In this document: positions 18,663 through 26,163 of the stretch, one piece after another
Layout of the letters: each line of letters opens with the position of its first letter
Position numbering within the stretch: position 1 is the stretch's first letter
Origin: Roseburia hominis
Lineage (GTDB): Bacteria > Bacillota > Clostridia > Lachnospirales > Lachnospiraceae
Assembly: GCA_021771815.1 (NCBI GenBank)
Contig: JAETOE010000020.1
Span: 1-64,000, forward strand
Length of the DNA: 64,000 nt
Direction of reading: 5' to 3'
The notes under the pieces: model-generated
The model's input: only the letters and a program-made list of their open reading frames with translations
The model's database searches: none
Told to the model about the DNA's origin: nothing
Position numbers and translations under genes: made by a program

Positions 18663-20306
18663 TTACTTTCCCCCAGCCACTTTTGCCGGATACCATTTCT
18701 GGAACCATGCTGTAAAAATCCCCATAAGAACAGGCAGTACAGAATTGATAAGCCCGACAAAGCTGCTGACGGGGGTTCGCATCAAAAGCCAGGTAAAAGC
18801 AGATGTAAGCAGGTAAAGGACGCCCCAAAGTATTGTCAGAATACGGTTAGTCTTTAGAAAGAGCACATTTTGTAAAGCGTCCTCACCACCATAGCTGTTC
18901 ATAGAATAATGAGCCGTAAGAGGTACTTTCCCAAGACAGGACACAAGCCACATAACACCAAAGGAAAGGTACGACAGCGGCAACATCCATTTTTCTGAAC
19001 ATCCTGCCAGCATCATAACGGAAAAACCTGTTACCAAAGCATTTGTCACAATATCATACACTGTTTTTTTGTTTCGATAGAAGATAAGGGGGACAAGCGC
19101 ACATACACCGATGCTGATAAGGCATCCCCACTGTTTGTGAATTGCGGGGGCTACCCATAAAACGATCCACGGAATGAGCATAATATTCATGTTGGTGTTT
19201 TTCTGCGGCAGGGCCGCTTCTACCCGTTTCACCTGTGGTTGTGAACCGCCAAAATAGTTGTCCCATTTCAGCATCAGGTTAAAATCTCCTTTTACCTTAT
19301 AAAGCCCCTGCATCATGGCTTCGTCTCCCCGAATCTCTCCGGCCGCAATCTGGCGCCATACAGTGACCGGCGTTTCGATCCTTGTAGTAGCCGTCAAAGA
19401 CCCGTCCGTATAAACACGGCTGCCGTCCTTTCCCAACAGAATCTGGTAGCTTTCATCCACGTCCGTGTAGTTCATTTCCAGTACAATGTCTTTGCCGGGA
19501 TAATTCTCCCTGCGGTAAAGTGCCGCCATCTGCCTGGTGAAAATCAGCGTGTCAGACTCTTTTACGGCAGTGCTGTTTTCTCCTGTTTTTGCGCCGCCCT
19601 TATCAATCCCCCAGCTTGCGTCAGCGCAGGCTTCAAAAGTCTCTCTCGGCAGCAGAAGCTGTTCAAGCTGTTCCTGCGTTTCTCCGGAAATCCCGCCCTT
19701 TATATACTCCTGTCCCGCCTGTTTTACATACGAAAGATATTCGTTGGTGCGCACGGACAGTTCCGGCACCCGAAATAACTCGCCCTGACCGCAAAAAACG
19801 GTCGTATAATTTCCCCGCCCGCAGAGATGGTCAAAAAGGCTGCATACGCCGTCATAATTTCCCTCTGCCGTATAAAAGCCGCAGGTGGAGATCACCACCG
19901 TTCTTTTTCCACTCATATCATAACGGGAAGGGTGGTTTCCGTTTCCGACCTGTCCCTCCTTTTCTTCCATGAACGGAAGGAGCATGGGTAGCTGACGGTC
20001 AATCAGATTTTTCAAAGGACCGGGAACCGAAAAATAATACAGAGGAAAACTCCATATTGTAACGTCCGACCAAAGCAGGTCGCAAATGACCTGCTGCATA
20101 TCATCCTGTATGCAGCATTGTCCGGGGGTACGGTTCCAGCACGAAAAACAGCCGAGGCAGGGTTTGATATTCATACGACTGACGGAAAGCTCTTTTATCT
20201 GAATATCCCGAACTTCCTGCTTCATTCCATCCAGAAACGCGGACGTCAACCGGTAGGTATTGCTTCCGGTTCCTTTGGGACTTCCGTTTATTACCAAAAT
20301 ATTCAT
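18663..20306 (-). CDS. Flavodoxin-like reductase / SCP2-like / membrane fusion
   Basis: A 547-residue protein with three parts. Residues 1-205 are an NADPH-dependent FMN reductase/flavodoxin fold (MNILVINGSPKGTGSNT, CLGCFSCW, then SFPLYYFSVPG). Residues 250-365 resemble a sterol-carrier (SCP2) domain (TRQMAALYRRENYPGKDIVL, DGSRVYTDGSLTATTRIETP, GLYKVKGDFNLML). Residues 385-545 are a membrane region of about five helices. The start at 20306 is set by GGAAGGAGAG; it overlaps the PadR gene by four bases. The fusion suggests a membrane-tethered flavoprotein acting on a hydrophobic substrate. Substrate and electron donor are unknown. Confidence 0.8.
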   Translation of the reverse strand: MNILVINGSPKGTGSNTYRLTSAFLDGMKQEVRDIQIKELSVSRMNIKPCLGCFSCWNRTPGQCCIQDDMQQVICDLLWSDVTIWSFPLYYFSVPGPLKNLIDRQLPMLLPFMEEKEGQVGNGNHPSRYDMSGKRTVVISTCGFYTAEGNYDGVCSLFDHLCGRGNYTTVFCGQGELFRVPELSVRTNEYLSYVKQAGQEYIKGGISGETQEQLEQLLLPRETFEACADASWGIDKGGAKTGENSTAVKESDTLIFTRQMAALYRRENYPGKDIVLEMNYTDVDESYQILLGKDGSRVYTDGSLTATTRIETPVTVWRQIAAGEIRGDEAMMQGLYKVKGDFNLMLKWDNYFGGSQPQVKRVEAALPQKNTNMNIMLIPWIVLWVAPAIHKQWGCLISIGVCALVPLIFYRNKKTVYDIVTNALVTGFSVMMLAGCSEKWMLPLSYLSFGVMWLVSCLGKVPLTAHYSMNSYGGEDALQNVLFLKTNRILTILWGVLYLLTSAFTWLLMRTPVSSFVGLINSVLPVLMGIFTAWFQKWYPAKVAGGK

Positions 20307-20851
20307 GACTTTATCTCTCCTTCCAACCGCCGGATGCAGTCCTTGGCCCAATCAATTTGCATTTGTAAGCTTCGCCGTCCATATTCTACCGTCATCTGCC
20401 AATAAAGCGTTTTCTCTTTCTGCCCGATCATATCGCCATAGGTGCGTACGTGCTGTGGAACGGACTCTAAACTATTCAGGAAAAACTCGCAGCTTTTCTT
20501 AACGCTTTCAAAATAACAAATATTTTCTTCCACACTTCTTTCCCCAAGGAAAAAGACTTTCATCAAAATCGGTGTCTTGACTCTCAGCCCCAGGTCACCA
20601 TCCGCAAGCCACCGCAGCAGTTCCTCCCGTCCCGCCGCCGTGATGGAATAGACATTTTTGTCGGGCTTTCCGGTTTGCGGAACAACGGTTTTGCTGACCC
20701 ATTGCTTTTGTTCCAACCCTTGCAGTTCTCTGTAGATCTGGCTGGTTTTCGCATCCCAGAAATAATTCAGGGAATCCCGAAAAGTCTCCATAATCTCATA
20801 CCCGGTCATTTCCGTATAATTGAGCAGTCCCAGAATTCCGTGCTTTAACAT
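20303..20851 (-). CDS. PadR-family transcriptional regulator
   Basis: A 182-residue regulator with the PadR winged helix (GILGLLNYTEMTGYEIMETF, then SQIYRELQGLEQKQWVSKTV and KNVYSITAAGREELLRWL) and a C-terminal dimerisation helix domain of the vir_act_alpha_C type. It is the first gene of a two-gene operon with the flavodoxin fusion, which it probably represses together with itself through the palindrome in its promoter. PadR regulators usually respond to phenolics, drugs or envelope stress. Confidence 0.92.
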   Translation of the reverse strand: MLKHGILGLLNYTEMTGYEIMETFRDSLNYFWDAKTSQIYRELQGLEQKQWVSKTVVPQTGKPDKNVYSITAAGREELLRWLADGDLGLRVKTPILMKVFFLGERSVEENICYFESVKKSCEFFLNSLESVPQHVRTYGDMIGQKEKTLYWQMTVEYGRRSLQMQIDWAKDCIRRLEGEIKS

Positions 20852-21215: not shown

Positions 21216-22796
21216 CTATAGCGTCGCAAACGAATACCCGCCGCTCCGCGCCGCATCGATAAAATCTCCGAGCACCGCCGCGTTCGTCTCAGACTCCGCG
21301 TGCAGCAGATAGACCGCGCCCGGATGCAGCTTGTCCGTCATTTTCTGAAGGCTCTCTGCCTCGTCCGGCTGATTGTTCACATCATAATCCATATATGCAA
21401 AACTCCAGAGCACGCTCTTATAGCCGCAGTTATTTACGATCGCAAGCGTCTGTTCGCTGAACTTCCCGGCGGGATAGCGGAACAGATACATATCGTAGCC
21501 GAAATTCTCTTCTATGTACCGATGATTTCCCATGACCTCTTCCTGCTGCTGCGTGGCGCTCTGCGACGGAAGCCCTGCCGCCGGATGCGTCACACTGTGA
21601 TTTCCGACGACATGTCCCTCGTCGATCATGCGCTGTACCAGTTCCGGCTCCGCCTTTGCGTACGGCTCTGTCACGAAAAATACCGCGGAAACCCCCTTTT
21701 CCTTTAACGTATCAAGAATGGATTCCGTGCAGCCGTACTCATAGCCCTCATCAAAGGTCAGATAAATACTCTTTTCATCCTCTCCCAGAAACACAGCGTT
21801 GTACGCGCCGTATTTCTCCTGTGCGCTGACCGCGTCGACCGGGCGGTTCTGCTCGTCCACATTCTTGCCAAGCCCCCAATTTACAACAGTCGTATCCAAT
21901 CCGTCAAGTGCGATCGTCTGCGTCACTTGCCCGGATGAAGCGCTTACGTCCGCTCCGGTGTTCTGTCCCGGCGCGCTTTGATCCGTTCCGTTATTCTGCC
22001 CTGTCGTACTTCCGTCTGCACCGTCTGTATTCTGCTCCGGCGCGCCGGACGTACCGTTATATATTTCATATGTAGAAAGAATCGCGTCTCCGATCGCCGC
22101 CGCATAGTCGTTAAGCTTCTCCTCCAAAAGCTGATTATCCGTCGCATTCCCGACAAAGCCCATTTCCACGATACAGGAAGGCATGTCCGAATGAATATTC
22201 ACGTAGTAGTTGCCCGACTCGCTCTTCTGCGTTCCCTTCTTAACGCCGCGGTTACGCTGAATCCCCACTTCGTCTAATTTATCCATGATCTGCTCCGCCA
22301 GCATCACCGTCTCGTCCGTCGCTCCGCTGTCCACCCATGTCTCCACGCCGTATCCCTCGCCGTCGTTGCGGTGCAGCGACACGAAATAGTCCGCATTGTT
22401 CTGGTTTGCAATATTACAGCGCTCTTCCAGACTTAAGAAAGTGTCGTCCTCCCTCGTCATGACCACACGGACATTTTTCTCTTCCAGATATACCGCGACC
22501 GCCTGCGCCAGTCTCAAATTGTCGTCCTTCTCCACATGCGAACCGGACTCCGAACCGTTATCCTTCCCACCGTGCCCGGCGTCGATACAGATGACAGGTC
22601 CCGTCAGTTCCACATTTTCATCCCCGGACACGACGACCTCTCCCTGAATCGGCAGCATCGTCTCTGTCACATCCAGCTTCTTTAATATACCGCCAAGCAC
22701 CTTAAAACCTGCGATTACAATTGAAAGCTGAATGATGCTGTACAGAACACAGACCATATTTCGGATTCGTCTCTTTCTTCTCTTTTCTGCATTCAC
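21216..22796 (-). CDS. N-acetylmuramoyl amidase / PdaA-type deacetylase fusion
   Basis: A 526-residue membrane-anchored, outward-facing enzyme. After one N-terminal helix (about 14-38) comes an Amidase_3 domain (67-245). Its zinc ligands His75 (DAGHGG), Glu89 and His142 (SLHRN) and catalytic Glu211 (VEMGF) are visible. A Gly/Thr/Gln-rich linker (248-292) leads to a NodB polysaccharide deacetylase (343-526) with TFDEGYE, NHSVTHP (His400, His404), RYPAGKFS and HPGAVYLLH. The DEGYE motif and WSFAYMDYDVNNQ are PdaA-like. CwlD (an Amidase_3 enzyme) and PdaA make muramic-delta-lactam in spore cortex as separate proteins; this gene joins both activities. The start is GTG 22796 with GGGGAG upstream. 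A vegetative wall role is possible. Confidence 0.9.
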   Translation of the reverse strand: MNAEKRRKRRIRNMVCVLYSIIQLSIVIAGFKVLGGILKKLDVTETMLPIQGEVVVSGDENVELTGPVICIDAGHGGKDNGSESGSHVEKDDNLRLAQAVAVYLEEKNVRVVMTREDDTFLSLEERCNIANQNNADYFVSLHRNDGEGYGVETWVDSGATDETVMLAEQIMDKLDEVGIQRNRGVKKGTQKSESGNYYVNIHSDMPSCIVEMGFVGNATDNQLLEEKLNDYAAAIGDAILSTYEIYNGTSGAPEQNTDGADGSTTGQNNGTDQSAPGQNTGADVSASSGQVTQTIALDGLDTTVVNWGLGKNVDEQNRPVDAVSAQEKYGAYNAVFLGEDEKSIYLTFDEGYEYGCTESILDTLKEKGVSAVFFVTEPYAKAEPELVQRMIDEGHVVGNHSVTHPAAGLPSQSATQQQEEVMGNHRYIEENFGYDMYLFRYPAGKFSEQTLAIVNNCGYKSVLWSFAYMDYDVNNQPDEAESLQKMTDKLHPGAVYLLHAESETNAAVLGDFIDAARSGGYSFATL

Positions 22797-22890
22797 ATCA
22801 CTTCACTCCCCAAATACTCTCTTTTTATTCTAGTCCAAATCCGACCAAAACGCGAATGAATATTCATGAAGATTTTCTTAAGATTGCAGG

Positions 22891-24138
22891 CTACAGCAAA
22901 AACTGTGCCAGCGCGTAGTTGCTGACGTCCTGTCCCTGCTCCGTCAGATAAATACGTCCGGCGCGTTTTAAAAGCAATCCCTCCGCCTGCAAATGCGAAA
23001 GAACCTCCTGATAGACCGCCTCAATCGGAATACCGAAGCACTTCTCAAAACGTTCTCTCGAAACGCCGCCCGTCATGCGCAGCCCGAGAAACATAAACTC
23101 TTCAATCTGTCCCTTCCTGCCTATTCTTTCCGCGGAGGCGTGAAGGTTGGTTGCCGGAAGCTCCTCTGTATACGAATACACACCGTCCGCCCGCTCCTCG
23201 GACACTTCGTTCTCCCACAGACCCTCACGGATATTGGCACTCTGTTCCAGATATTCATACAGGTCGCTGATGTTGCTGTAACGGATATTTTCCATCAGAG
23301 AAGACGCACCAAGCCCCAGCCCCAGATAATTTTCCCGCTCCCAGTAACCGATATTGTGCCTGCATGCATAGCCTGGCTTTGCAAAATTGGAGACTTCATA
23401 ATGTTCATAGCCCGCCTCTTTCAATCCCTGCTCCGTCAGCTTTGTCATCCGATAGACCTCGTCCTCCGTCGGAAGCACAAAAGTCGGCATGCCCGCCTTC
23501 TGCTTGACCGCGTCAAATTTGTACAGGTCATAAAACGGCGTACCCTTCTCGATGATCAGGGAATATGCCGAAATGTGCTCCGGCTTTAAGCGAAGCACCT
23601 GCTGTAAGGTCTGTCCGAAACTCTCCGACGTCTGCCCCGGCAGGGAGCTCATAATATCGACGTTGATATTGTCAAAGCCGTTCCTGCGCGCCAGCTCATA
23701 GGTCTTTAGAAACTGATCGAAGGTGTGGATGCGCCCCAGAAGCTTTAATTCCTCATCCGACGCCGACTGCAGCCCGATGCTGATGCGGTTGATACCCGAT
23801 CTGCGGTATACGGCGAACTTGTGATCCGTCACGGTTCCCGGGTTGCACTCAATCGAAACCTCCGCATCCGACGCCAGCGCAAAAGAATGCTTCACCGCCG
23901 TCATGATTTCCTCCATCGACTCCTCACGAAGCCAGGAAGGCGTACCGCCGCCGATGTACACCGTCGTCACAAGATAATCCATACAACGCGACCCATAGTA
24001 GGCAATCTCACGAAGCAGCGCCTGCACATAATCGTTCTGCGTGCTCTCGTCCGCCGCAAAGGACAGGAAATCGCAGTACTGGCATTTCTTAATACAAAAC
24101 GGAATGTGTATATATAATTCCATTGTTTTCTTACTCAT
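22891..24138 (-). CDS. hemW: Radical SAM protein HemW
   Basis: A 415-residue radical SAM enzyme of the HemW family (often misnamed coproporphyrinogen III dehydrogenase), a haem-binding chaperone in other bacteria. Motif CIKKCQYCDFLSF is preceded by ELYIHIPF at the N-terminus, followed by YIGGGTPSWL and NIDIMSSLPGQT-like NVDIMSSLPGQT. The N-terminal extension and extra arginine of HemN are absent. The start is supported by CGGAGACGATA. The usual neighbour lepA lies about 2.7 kb downstream of it on the same strand, separated here by the DJ-1 and FNT region. Confidence 0.92.
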   Translation of the reverse strand: MSKKTMELYIHIPFCIKKCQYCDFLSFAADESTQNDYVQALLREIAYYGSRCMDYLVTTVYIGGGTPSWLREESMEEIMTAVKHSFALASDAEVSIECNPGTVTDHKFAVYRRSGINRISIGLQSASDEELKLLGRIHTFDQFLKTYELARRNGFDNINVDIMSSLPGQTSESFGQTLQQVLRLKPEHISAYSLIIEKGTPFYDLYKFDAVKQKAGMPTFVLPTEDEVYRMTKLTEQGLKEAGYEHYEVSNFAKPGYACRHNIGYWERENYLGLGLGASSLMENIRYSNISDLYEYLEQSANIREGLWENEVSEERADGVYSYTEELPATNLHASAERIGRKGQIEEFMFLGLRMTGGVSRERFEKCFGIPIEAVYQEVLSHLQAEGLLLKRAGRIYLTEQGQDVSNYALAQFLL

Positions 24139-25020: not shown

Positions 25021-26163
25021 ATGGAACAGAATTATAACACTCCAAAAGAAGTCATAGAATCAAATATCAACACTGCCGTCGGCAAGGCGGCATTGCCGTT
25101 CGGAAAAATGATTCTGCTCGGCATACTGGCAGGCATCTTTATCGCCCTTGGCGGCGCCGGAAGCAATGTTGCAGTGCATGATATCGCCAATGTGGGCTTA
25201 CAGCGGACGCTTGCCGGAGTGATTTTCCCGGCGGGACTGATAATGATCGTCCTTGTCGGCGGCGAACTGTTCACCGGAAACTGCCTGATGACAATGGCGG
25301 CATGGGACAAGAAAATCAAGTGGAGCGGGATGCTCCGCAATCTGGTCGTCGTATTCTTTTCGAACCTTATCGGCGCGCTCGTTATCGTCCTGCTCGTTTC
25401 TTTCAGCGGTCAGCTTGACTATACCGGGGGAAAACTCGGCGCATATACGATCAGCGTCGCCGCAAAAAAAATCGCGCTCTCCCCTCTTCGCATGGTGCTT
25501 TCCGGCATTCTCTGCAACGTGCTTGTATGCGTGGCAATTCTGATGGCTGCCGCGGCAAAAGATGTCGCAGGAAAGATCCTTGCCATTTTTTTCCCGATCT
25601 GGCTGTTCGTCGCATCGGGCTTTGAACATGTGGTCGCAAATATGTACTACATTCCCGCCGGAATTCTCGCAGCGATGAATCCCGCTTACGTGGAAACGGC
25701 AAAGGAGTTGTATTCTCTGACCGACGCGCAGCTTGCCTCGCTAAACGCCCTTGATTCACTCCCGGGTTTCTTCTTCGTGATGCTCGGCAACTTTATCGGC
25801 GGCGGTCTTGTAATCGGCGGACTTTGTTATCTGACACAGAAGAAAGTTTATGATAAGGAATTCAAAATTCAGGCAGTACAACTGGAAAGAGAAATTGGCT
25901 TTAGTAAAGCCGCAAAAGAATTAGGAGTCAACATTGATACGCTGTACGGATGGAATAAGCGTACAAAAGACGACAGATTCGATTTAGAACTGGGAATGCA
26001 GACTCTGGATGCGGCTATGAGCCTTACAGAAGAGGTGCAAAATCTCAGACAGCAAAGCAGTGAACAGTCAAAAGAGATCGCTCGTTTAAAAGAGGAAAAT
26101 GAGTTTCTGGCGGAAGCAAGCGCTTTTTTCGCAGCGAACCGCCAGAAGTCAGCCAAAAATTGA
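25021..26163 (+). CDS. Formate/nitrite channel fused to IS3 OrfA
   Basis: Residues 1-273 are a nearly full FNT channel with six membrane segments: GGAGSNVA, the pore motif FTGNCLMTMAAW and the central histidine in GFEHVVANMYYIPAG. FNT proteins normally end about here (270-285 residues). In frame, from about residue 276 (nt 25846), it continues as an IS3-family OrfA: YDKEFKIQAVQLEREIGFSK, the HTH AAKELGVNIDTLYGW, and the leucine-zipper tail IARLKEENEFLAEASAFFAA to SAKN-stop. The OrfA start codon and IS left end are missing, and no OrfB follows. The result is a 380-residue protein with a cytoplasmic DNA-binding tail. The channel part may still work. It likely arose by insertion or deletion at the FNT stop codon. 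Confidence 0.9.
   Translation: MEQNYNTPKEVIESNINTAVGKAALPFGKMILLGILAGIFIALGGAGSNVAVHDIANVGLQRTLAGVIFPAGLIMIVLVGGELFTGNCLMTMAAWDKKIKWSGMLRNLVVVFFSNLIGALVIVLLVSFSGQLDYTGGKLGAYTISVAAKKIALSPLRMVLSGILCNVLVCVAILMAAAAKDVAGKILAIFFPIWLFVASGFEHVVANMYYIPAGILAAMNPAYVETAKELYSLTDAQLASLNALDSLPGFFFVMLGNFIGGGLVIGGLCYLTQKKVYDKEFKIQAVQLEREIGFSKAAKELGVNIDTLYGWNKRTKDDRFDLELGMQTLDAAMSLTEEVQNLRQQSSEQSKEIARLKEENEFLAEASAFFAANRQKSAKN

Follow-up and report, generated by a model that had tools for sequence, protein, structure and literature searches.

We analysed a gene in a 64,000-nucleotide stretch of Roseburia hominis DNA (contig JAETOE010000020.1, positions 1–64,000; hereafter the window) in which an amidase and a polysaccharide deacetylase are joined in a single open reading frame (ORF), hereafter the fusion. 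An earlier sequence-only reading had described it as a CwlD-like amidase fused to a PdaA-type deacetylase, and had proposed that it is a natural two-step enzyme for the muramic-delta-lactam of the spore cortex that hands its product directly from one half to the other. The coordinates of that two-domain gene were right, and its strand, which had not been given, is minus. The features of the gene are as follows.

21216–22796, minus strand: fusion gene, 526 amino acids, GTG start at 22796–22794 and TAG stop at 21216–21218, from the ORF and its translation
22806–22811, minus strand: GGGGAG, resembling a ribosome-binding site, read off the sequence
22677–22757, minus strand: predicted membrane helix (N-terminal anchor), residues 14–40; modelled as a helix over residues 2–40, hydrophobicity judged by eye
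22077–22592, minus strand: Amidase_3 domain, residues 69–240, with predicted zinc-binding and catalytic residues His75, Glu89, His142 and Glu211
21897–22064, minus strand: flexible linker, residues 245–300; predicted local distance difference test (pLDDT) score below 50 at residues 248–290
21219–21896, minus strand: PdaA-like deacetylase domain, residues 301–526, with Asp349, Glu350, His400, His404, Arg440 and His499

At a threshold of 0.001, Pfam reported two domains and no others, each above its family cut-off and so a member of the family: Amidase_3 (PF01520; residues 69–240, 8.2e-43, 146.9 bits against a cut-off of 27) and Polysacc_deac_1 (PF01522, the NodB/CE4 family; residues 340–461, 2.5e-33, 115.1 bits against 23.1). 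All six residues singled out earlier (His75, Glu89, His142, Glu211, His400 and His404) were found in place, and the TFDEGYE motif is present, reading LTFDEGYEYG in full. Comparison with the homologous locus of Roseburia sp. RGIG9039 (L040) gave ratios of nonsynonymous to synonymous substitution (dN/dS) of 0.059 in the amidase, 0.112 in the deacetylase and 0.358 in the linker. Both halves are thus under purifying selection, which ruled out a frameshift artefact or a chance ORF.

The fusion recurs beyond this genome. Our homologue search scored 7999 candidates, and each of the 120 homologues listed, of 3595, carried both Pfam domains; among the matches listed, both halves lay in one ORF in 27 of 79 kept contig loci, in hosts named as Roseburia, Kineothrix, Anaerosacchariphilus, Eubacterium and Lachnospiraceae. 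At least 11 of 397 Lachnospiraceae genomes have a fusion, a lower bound as at most three candidates were scored per genome, for which reason paralogues may also be undercounted; the 11 include two (G158 and G181) recognised only by reading their ORFs and absent from a first count of nine. An alignment of 35 fusions was invariant at His75, Glu89, His142, Glu211, Asp349, His400, His404, Arg440 and His499. Over a wider range of fusions, 34 loci representing 33 distinct genes, the His-Glu-His-Glu set of the amidase was intact throughout, and the full deacetylase set (Asp, two His, Arg, His) in 31; residue by residue, the Thr, catalytic Asp and Arg were kept in all 34, while 33 loci had the first metal-binding His, 31 the second and 32 the general-acid His. 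The exceptions, L184, L207 and L216, retain their amidase residues and have lost a metal-binding or general-acid His of the deacetylase, and these halves are possibly binding-only or decaying modules. Over the same 34 loci the linker ranges from 28 to 157 residues (median 47.5). With this range, and with the linker's fast evolution and low confidence in the model, the proposed direct transfer of product finds no support.

To place the deacetylase half, we compared it with models of known families. It scored best against PdaA (TIGR02884; 223.8 bits), ahead of PdaB (121.3), NodB (97.7) and peptidoglycan N-acetylglucosamine (GlcNAc) deacetylases (83 or lower), bearing out its closeness to PdaA rather than to GlcNAc deacetylases, and a plain GlcNAc deacetylase was rejected as the best reading on these scores. 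The equivalog cut-off of the PdaA model is 298, above the fusion and also just above a separate PdaA-type gene of the same genome (C59, 280 amino acids, 292.9 bits). In a carefully searched tree of 53 hand-picked rows, 41 paralogue rows (fusions and unfused relatives) split from 12 PdaA rows, including the Bacillus references, with support of 100/99; as the root of this tree is not resolved, the paralogues may have originated inside the PdaA family. By score and tree, then, the half is a member of a PdaA paralogue clade outside canonical PdaA, and the description 'PdaA-type' stands for the family and fails for canonical PdaA. The second position of motif 1 is Glu in 30 of 34 fusions and 50 of 52 unfused relatives, Glu or Gln in all 32 members of an Oscillospiraceae set, Cys or Ala in all 30 canonical PdaA sequences and Asn in two Bacillus references. 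We rejected a cyclase-only, SwsB-like role because the catalytic Asp is kept in 34/34 fusions, which, by the residue logic in the available part of PMC12444981, points to a deacetylase.

The amidase half scored 99.3 bits against the CwlD model (TIGR02883), below the equivalog cut-off of 221.55; this cut-off is strict, since a separate CwlD-type gene of the same genome (C43, 238 amino acids, 210 bits) also falls just under it. In a tree from a quick search, whose clade split comes with a long-branch warning, the 34 fusion rows and L116 formed one clade (98) on a long stem and 30 CwlD rows another (98). L116 is an 'amidase-only' gene in which a single base, a few codons ahead of the stop, is ambiguous (N), and we drew no inference from it. 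After the second zinc His, the fusion reads SLHRN followed by a short loop or turn, and the two CwlD rows displayed read SIHQNS. Judged from these comparisons the half is not CwlD and forms a separate clade; 'CwlD-like' was correct as to the Amidase_3 family and its residues, and loose as a label. A GerS-dependent CwlD was rejected because GerS is called unique to the Peptostreptococcaceae in the accessible text of PMC8496864; the genome was not searched for GerS.

The deacetylase module also occurs with SH3 domains, Ig-like domains or no recognised partner: in L198 it stands behind an Ig-like domain, and in L204 and L211, from genomes with neither SpoIVA nor SpoIIE matches, behind SH3. Forcing the fusion rows into one clade on the deacetylase tree was mildly rejected by the approximately unbiased (AU) test (p-AU 0.04). 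The amidase halves nevertheless form one clade, and a single old fusion with several losses or swaps fits these data.

The presence of C43 and C59 means that this genome has separate cwlD- and pdaA-type genes, a finding that counts against the fusion as the cortex-lactam enzyme; because a spore-type pair is already present, the fusion is likely an additional wall editor and not the spore's own enzyme. Of 28 carriers (this genome and those of L040–L066), 25 gave a CwlD match and 20 a canonical PdaA match. Canonical PdaA, defined as a best E-value of about 1e-74 or lower (a cut that takes in one paralogue, G197, and excludes borderline or truncated matches such as G029 and G001), was also looked for in three further fusion genomes, G147, G158 and G181, with G360 and G411 left out, and was found in G147 only.

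If one marker is used for sporulation genes, SpoIVA matches occur in 257 of the 397 family genomes. We added SpoIIE, taking matches at 1e-20 (0/51 genomes lay above its curated cut-off); matches to either marker are not proof of sporulation, and our Fisher tests ignore phylogeny. Canonical PdaA tracks SpoIVA strongly, with 92 of 95 carriers positive among 250 genomes searched (p=7e-20; 92 of 94 without the mis-assigned paralogue), indicating that the association test works. The paralogue clade showed no association with SpoIVA (33/49 positive, p=0.75), and the fusions gave 9 of 11 (p=0.34; 7 of 9, p=0.50, before G158 and G181 were added). SpoIIE was likewise unmatched in all 14 SpoIVA-negative genomes whose paralogues are all unfused. 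The paralogue family as a whole is therefore not a spore family, and the fusions are mostly in genomes with sporulation genes. Two fusion genomes that by SpoIVA alone had seemed to be without such genes, G268 (identical to G240) and G254, proved to have SpoIIE matches.

Upstream regions were scored against consensus strings for promoter motifs, with start sites set by a simple rule. Upstream of 30 fusion loci (4/34 were left out: L044 and L057 had too little upstream sequence, the start of L066 was misplaced and L178 duplicates L046; 1/19 unfused loci was also left out), the sigma-A score averaged z 0.90 and sigma-E 0.05, compared with 0.07 and 0.63 for canonical pdaA and 0.21 and 0.40 for cwlD. 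Fusion upstream regions thus look sigma-A-like on average, as in TTGACC-17-TACAAT (L048) and TGGACA-17-TATGAT (L049), and the canonical genes look weakly sigma-E-like.

From these data we hold, with moderate confidence, that the fusion is a membrane-tethered wall-editing enzyme, acting chiefly in growing cells, that would first remove the stem peptide and next deacetylate the exposed N-acetylmuramic acid (MurNAc), working beside the cortex pair. We infer the two activities, their order, the membrane topology and the growth-phase expression as follows. The two-domain protein is predicted to lie at the outer surface of the membrane, where the amidase half likely cleaves the stem peptide off MurNAc and the PdaA-paralogue half then likely removes the acetyl group from the sugar so exposed, both acting on one glycan strand. 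This order is proposed because known PdaA acts on MurNAc only once the peptide is gone: in reconstitution, as given in the available portion of PMC10116595, CwlD acts first and PdaA, inactive on peptide-bearing strands, second. The flexible linker would hold the second active site near fresh product with no fixed channel. A sigma-A-type promoter would place the main activity in growing cells, leaving the separate CwlD and PdaA genes as the better candidates for the cortex.

The strongest competitor, which we consider rather unlikely, is that the fusion does carry out both steps of cortex muramic-delta-lactam formation, whether duplicating CwlD and PdaA or, in some lineages, as the principal enzyme. 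What survives of the earlier two-step proposal is shared by this reading, as the two catalytic domains lie in pathway order with residues for both chemistries. Several observations pull towards it and away from an enzyme of growing cells. SpoIIE matches occur in 31 and SpoIVA matches in 29 of the 33 distinct fusion genomes; in the family sample, 10 of the 11 genomes with a fusion match one or both markers, compared with 248 of 386 other genomes when SpoIVA alone is counted (p=0.11). One of the two fusion genomes with neither marker, G360, is that of L184, whose deacetylase half lacks both metal-binding His, as if this half were not needed there; and G339, the one genome displayed from the same genus, has no fusion and no match to SpoIVA or SpoIIE. 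Seven genomes (G251, G252, G254, G260, G263, G268 and G269) have a SpoIIE match and no canonical PdaA at our cut. In two of these, Kineothrix sp. MSJ-39 (G260) and Anaerosacchariphilus polymeriproducens (G269), whose titles bear no mark of a metagenome-assembled genome, the PdaA model matched nothing but the fusion at 1e-45 among the matches listed, and the fusion may have a cortex role in both, each having sporulation genes. Among 161 SpoIVA genomes, a paralogue was found in 14 of 69 without canonical PdaA versus 7 of 92 with it (p=0.03), an excess suggesting that in some lineages the one has replaced the other. The promoter evidence is also less clear than its averages: the spore-gene controls were weak (sigma-G z 0.25 for pdaA and -0.04 for cwlD; sigma-E no higher than the values above), the fusions also averaged z 0.35 for sigma-F and exceeded z 2 for sigma-A in only 7/30, and the consensus scan found no sigma-70 site upstream of the window gene itself.

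Against the cortex reading stand the separate pair in this genome and most carriers, the position of both halves outside the canonical clades (as seen by quick tree searching, with 151 rows in one tree, and by the careful tree of 53 rows), a paralogue clade that does not track SpoIVA, and upstream regions that on average are neither sigma-E- nor sigma-G-like. Moreover, canonical PdaA is commonly missing anyway: at our cut, 69 of the 161 Lachnospiraceae genomes with SpoIVA have none. The spore interpretation is thereby weakened, and a wall editor of growing cells remains our preferred account.

Two further readings seem improbable to a similar degree. In one, the fusion is a one-protein muramic-delta-lactam synthase of growing cells that marks or armours bared septal or polar glycan, its second domain reaching the product by the tether. 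In the other, the deacetylase half acts on GlcNAc of denuded strands, as SddA of E. coli does, making neither lactam nor de-N-acetylated muramic acid, and tunes septum splitting or how well bared glycan withstands lysozyme and lytic enzymes. Most fusions have Glu as the second residue of motif 1, unlike the Asn, Ala or Cys of the PdaA rows, which fits this idea. Such a Glu could supply a third metal ligand, as in ordinary CE4 enzymes. SddA, so far as the available text of PMC12440217 describes it, acts on strands bared by the septal amidases AmiA/B/C, with a specificity for GlcNAc in denuded strands; however, it belongs to PF04748 whereas the fusion domain is PF01522, and the fusion scores higher with PdaA than with the GlcNAc deacetylase or NodB models. 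Least probable of all is that the halves work independently, in an ordinary membrane autolysin carrying a deacetylase module with the tether giving shared location only, as the module's other partners, the mild rejection of a single fusion clade on the deacetylase tree, the three loci with degraded deacetylases and the variable linker would allow, since the intact residue sets in 31/34 loci and the single amidase clade indicate that the pairing has been kept.

Three further features lie upstream of the fusion.

22827–22832, minus strand: candidate -10 element TAGAAT, read off the sequence and not picked up by the consensus scan
22867–22882, minus strand: CTTAAGAAAATCTTCA box
22891–24138, minus strand: hemW-like gene directly upstream, a neighbour kept in some relatives

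The motif CTTAAGAA occurs within 140 bases upstream of 10/30 fusions, many of these ten being close relatives, compared with 1/18 unfused paralogues and 0/60 canonical pdaA or cwlD genes. The genome has one other exact copy of the box, inside a serpin gene. The box gave no lead as a regulon marker: allowing up to one mismatch gave four genome matches versus five for the reversed control. The gene at 22891–24138, which we take to be hemW, has a counterpart directly upstream of the fusion at 6 of 27 loci (L040–L043, L045 and L065), some of the 27 ending too close to the fusion to show this region. Other neighbours vary and include CobW/DUF1980, VCA0040-like, response regulator, MatE, RNase Y and cellulase genes, among others; 2 of 20 neighbour ORFs had no match. 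The ORFs around the fusion are similar in length and order in L053, L055, L060 and L062. The upstream gene of L055 is CobW with a DUF1980 C-terminal part, and perhaps such a neighbour is tied to zinc supply for two metalloenzyme halves.

Two other ORFs in the window also combine domains. At 25021–26163 on the plus strand, a formate/nitrite transporter domain (residues 10–270) continues in frame into a transposase helix-turn-helix match (HTH_Tnp_1, residues 274–345; 26.8 bits against a cut-off of 24.1) and a coiled segment; its counterpart in L040 is 834 bases long. At 18663–20351 on the minus strand, one ORF combines a flavodoxin/FMN-reductase domain with an SCP2 match and has a hydrophobic C-terminal part.

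To our knowledge, muramic-delta-lactam is regarded as a mark found only in spores and produced by two separate proteins. That a fusion is conserved in genomes most of which also retain the separate genes raises the question of whether peptide stripping and MurNAc deacetylation edit the walls of growing Lachnospiraceae, which could alter lysozyme resistance and muropeptide signals. The fusion offers a ready-made single polypeptide for the published in vitro lactam assay, and carriers in which it is the only strong PdaA-type match allow a clean genetic test.

The fusion is a new architecture built from known families, and at the level of titles and abstracts we found no account of such an amidase-deacetylase fusion in the open-access literature. 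Compared with PdaA (B. subtilis PdaA, PDB 1w17/1ny1), the deacetylase half has TFDEGYE in place of TFD[N/C/A]G[Y/F]EN, falls in a separate clade with no tie to SpoIVA, scores below the curated cut-off and is joined to an amidase. The amidase half differs from CwlD (PDB 7rag) in score, clade and the SLHRN motif with its short loop in place of SIHQNS. The muramic-delta-lactam cyclase SwsB, as presented in the accessible part of PMC12444981, shares the PdaA-related CE4 fold and has an extra N-terminal domain, but it carries Asn for the catalytic Asp and has no deacetylase activity, whereas all 34 fusions keep the Asp. The closest parallel in logic is SddA with AmiA/B/C, where, in the portion of PMC12440217 available, an amidase product likewise becomes a deacetylase substrate in growing cells; that system uses separate proteins and a GlcNAc-specific PF04748 enzyme, a family with no match in the fusion.
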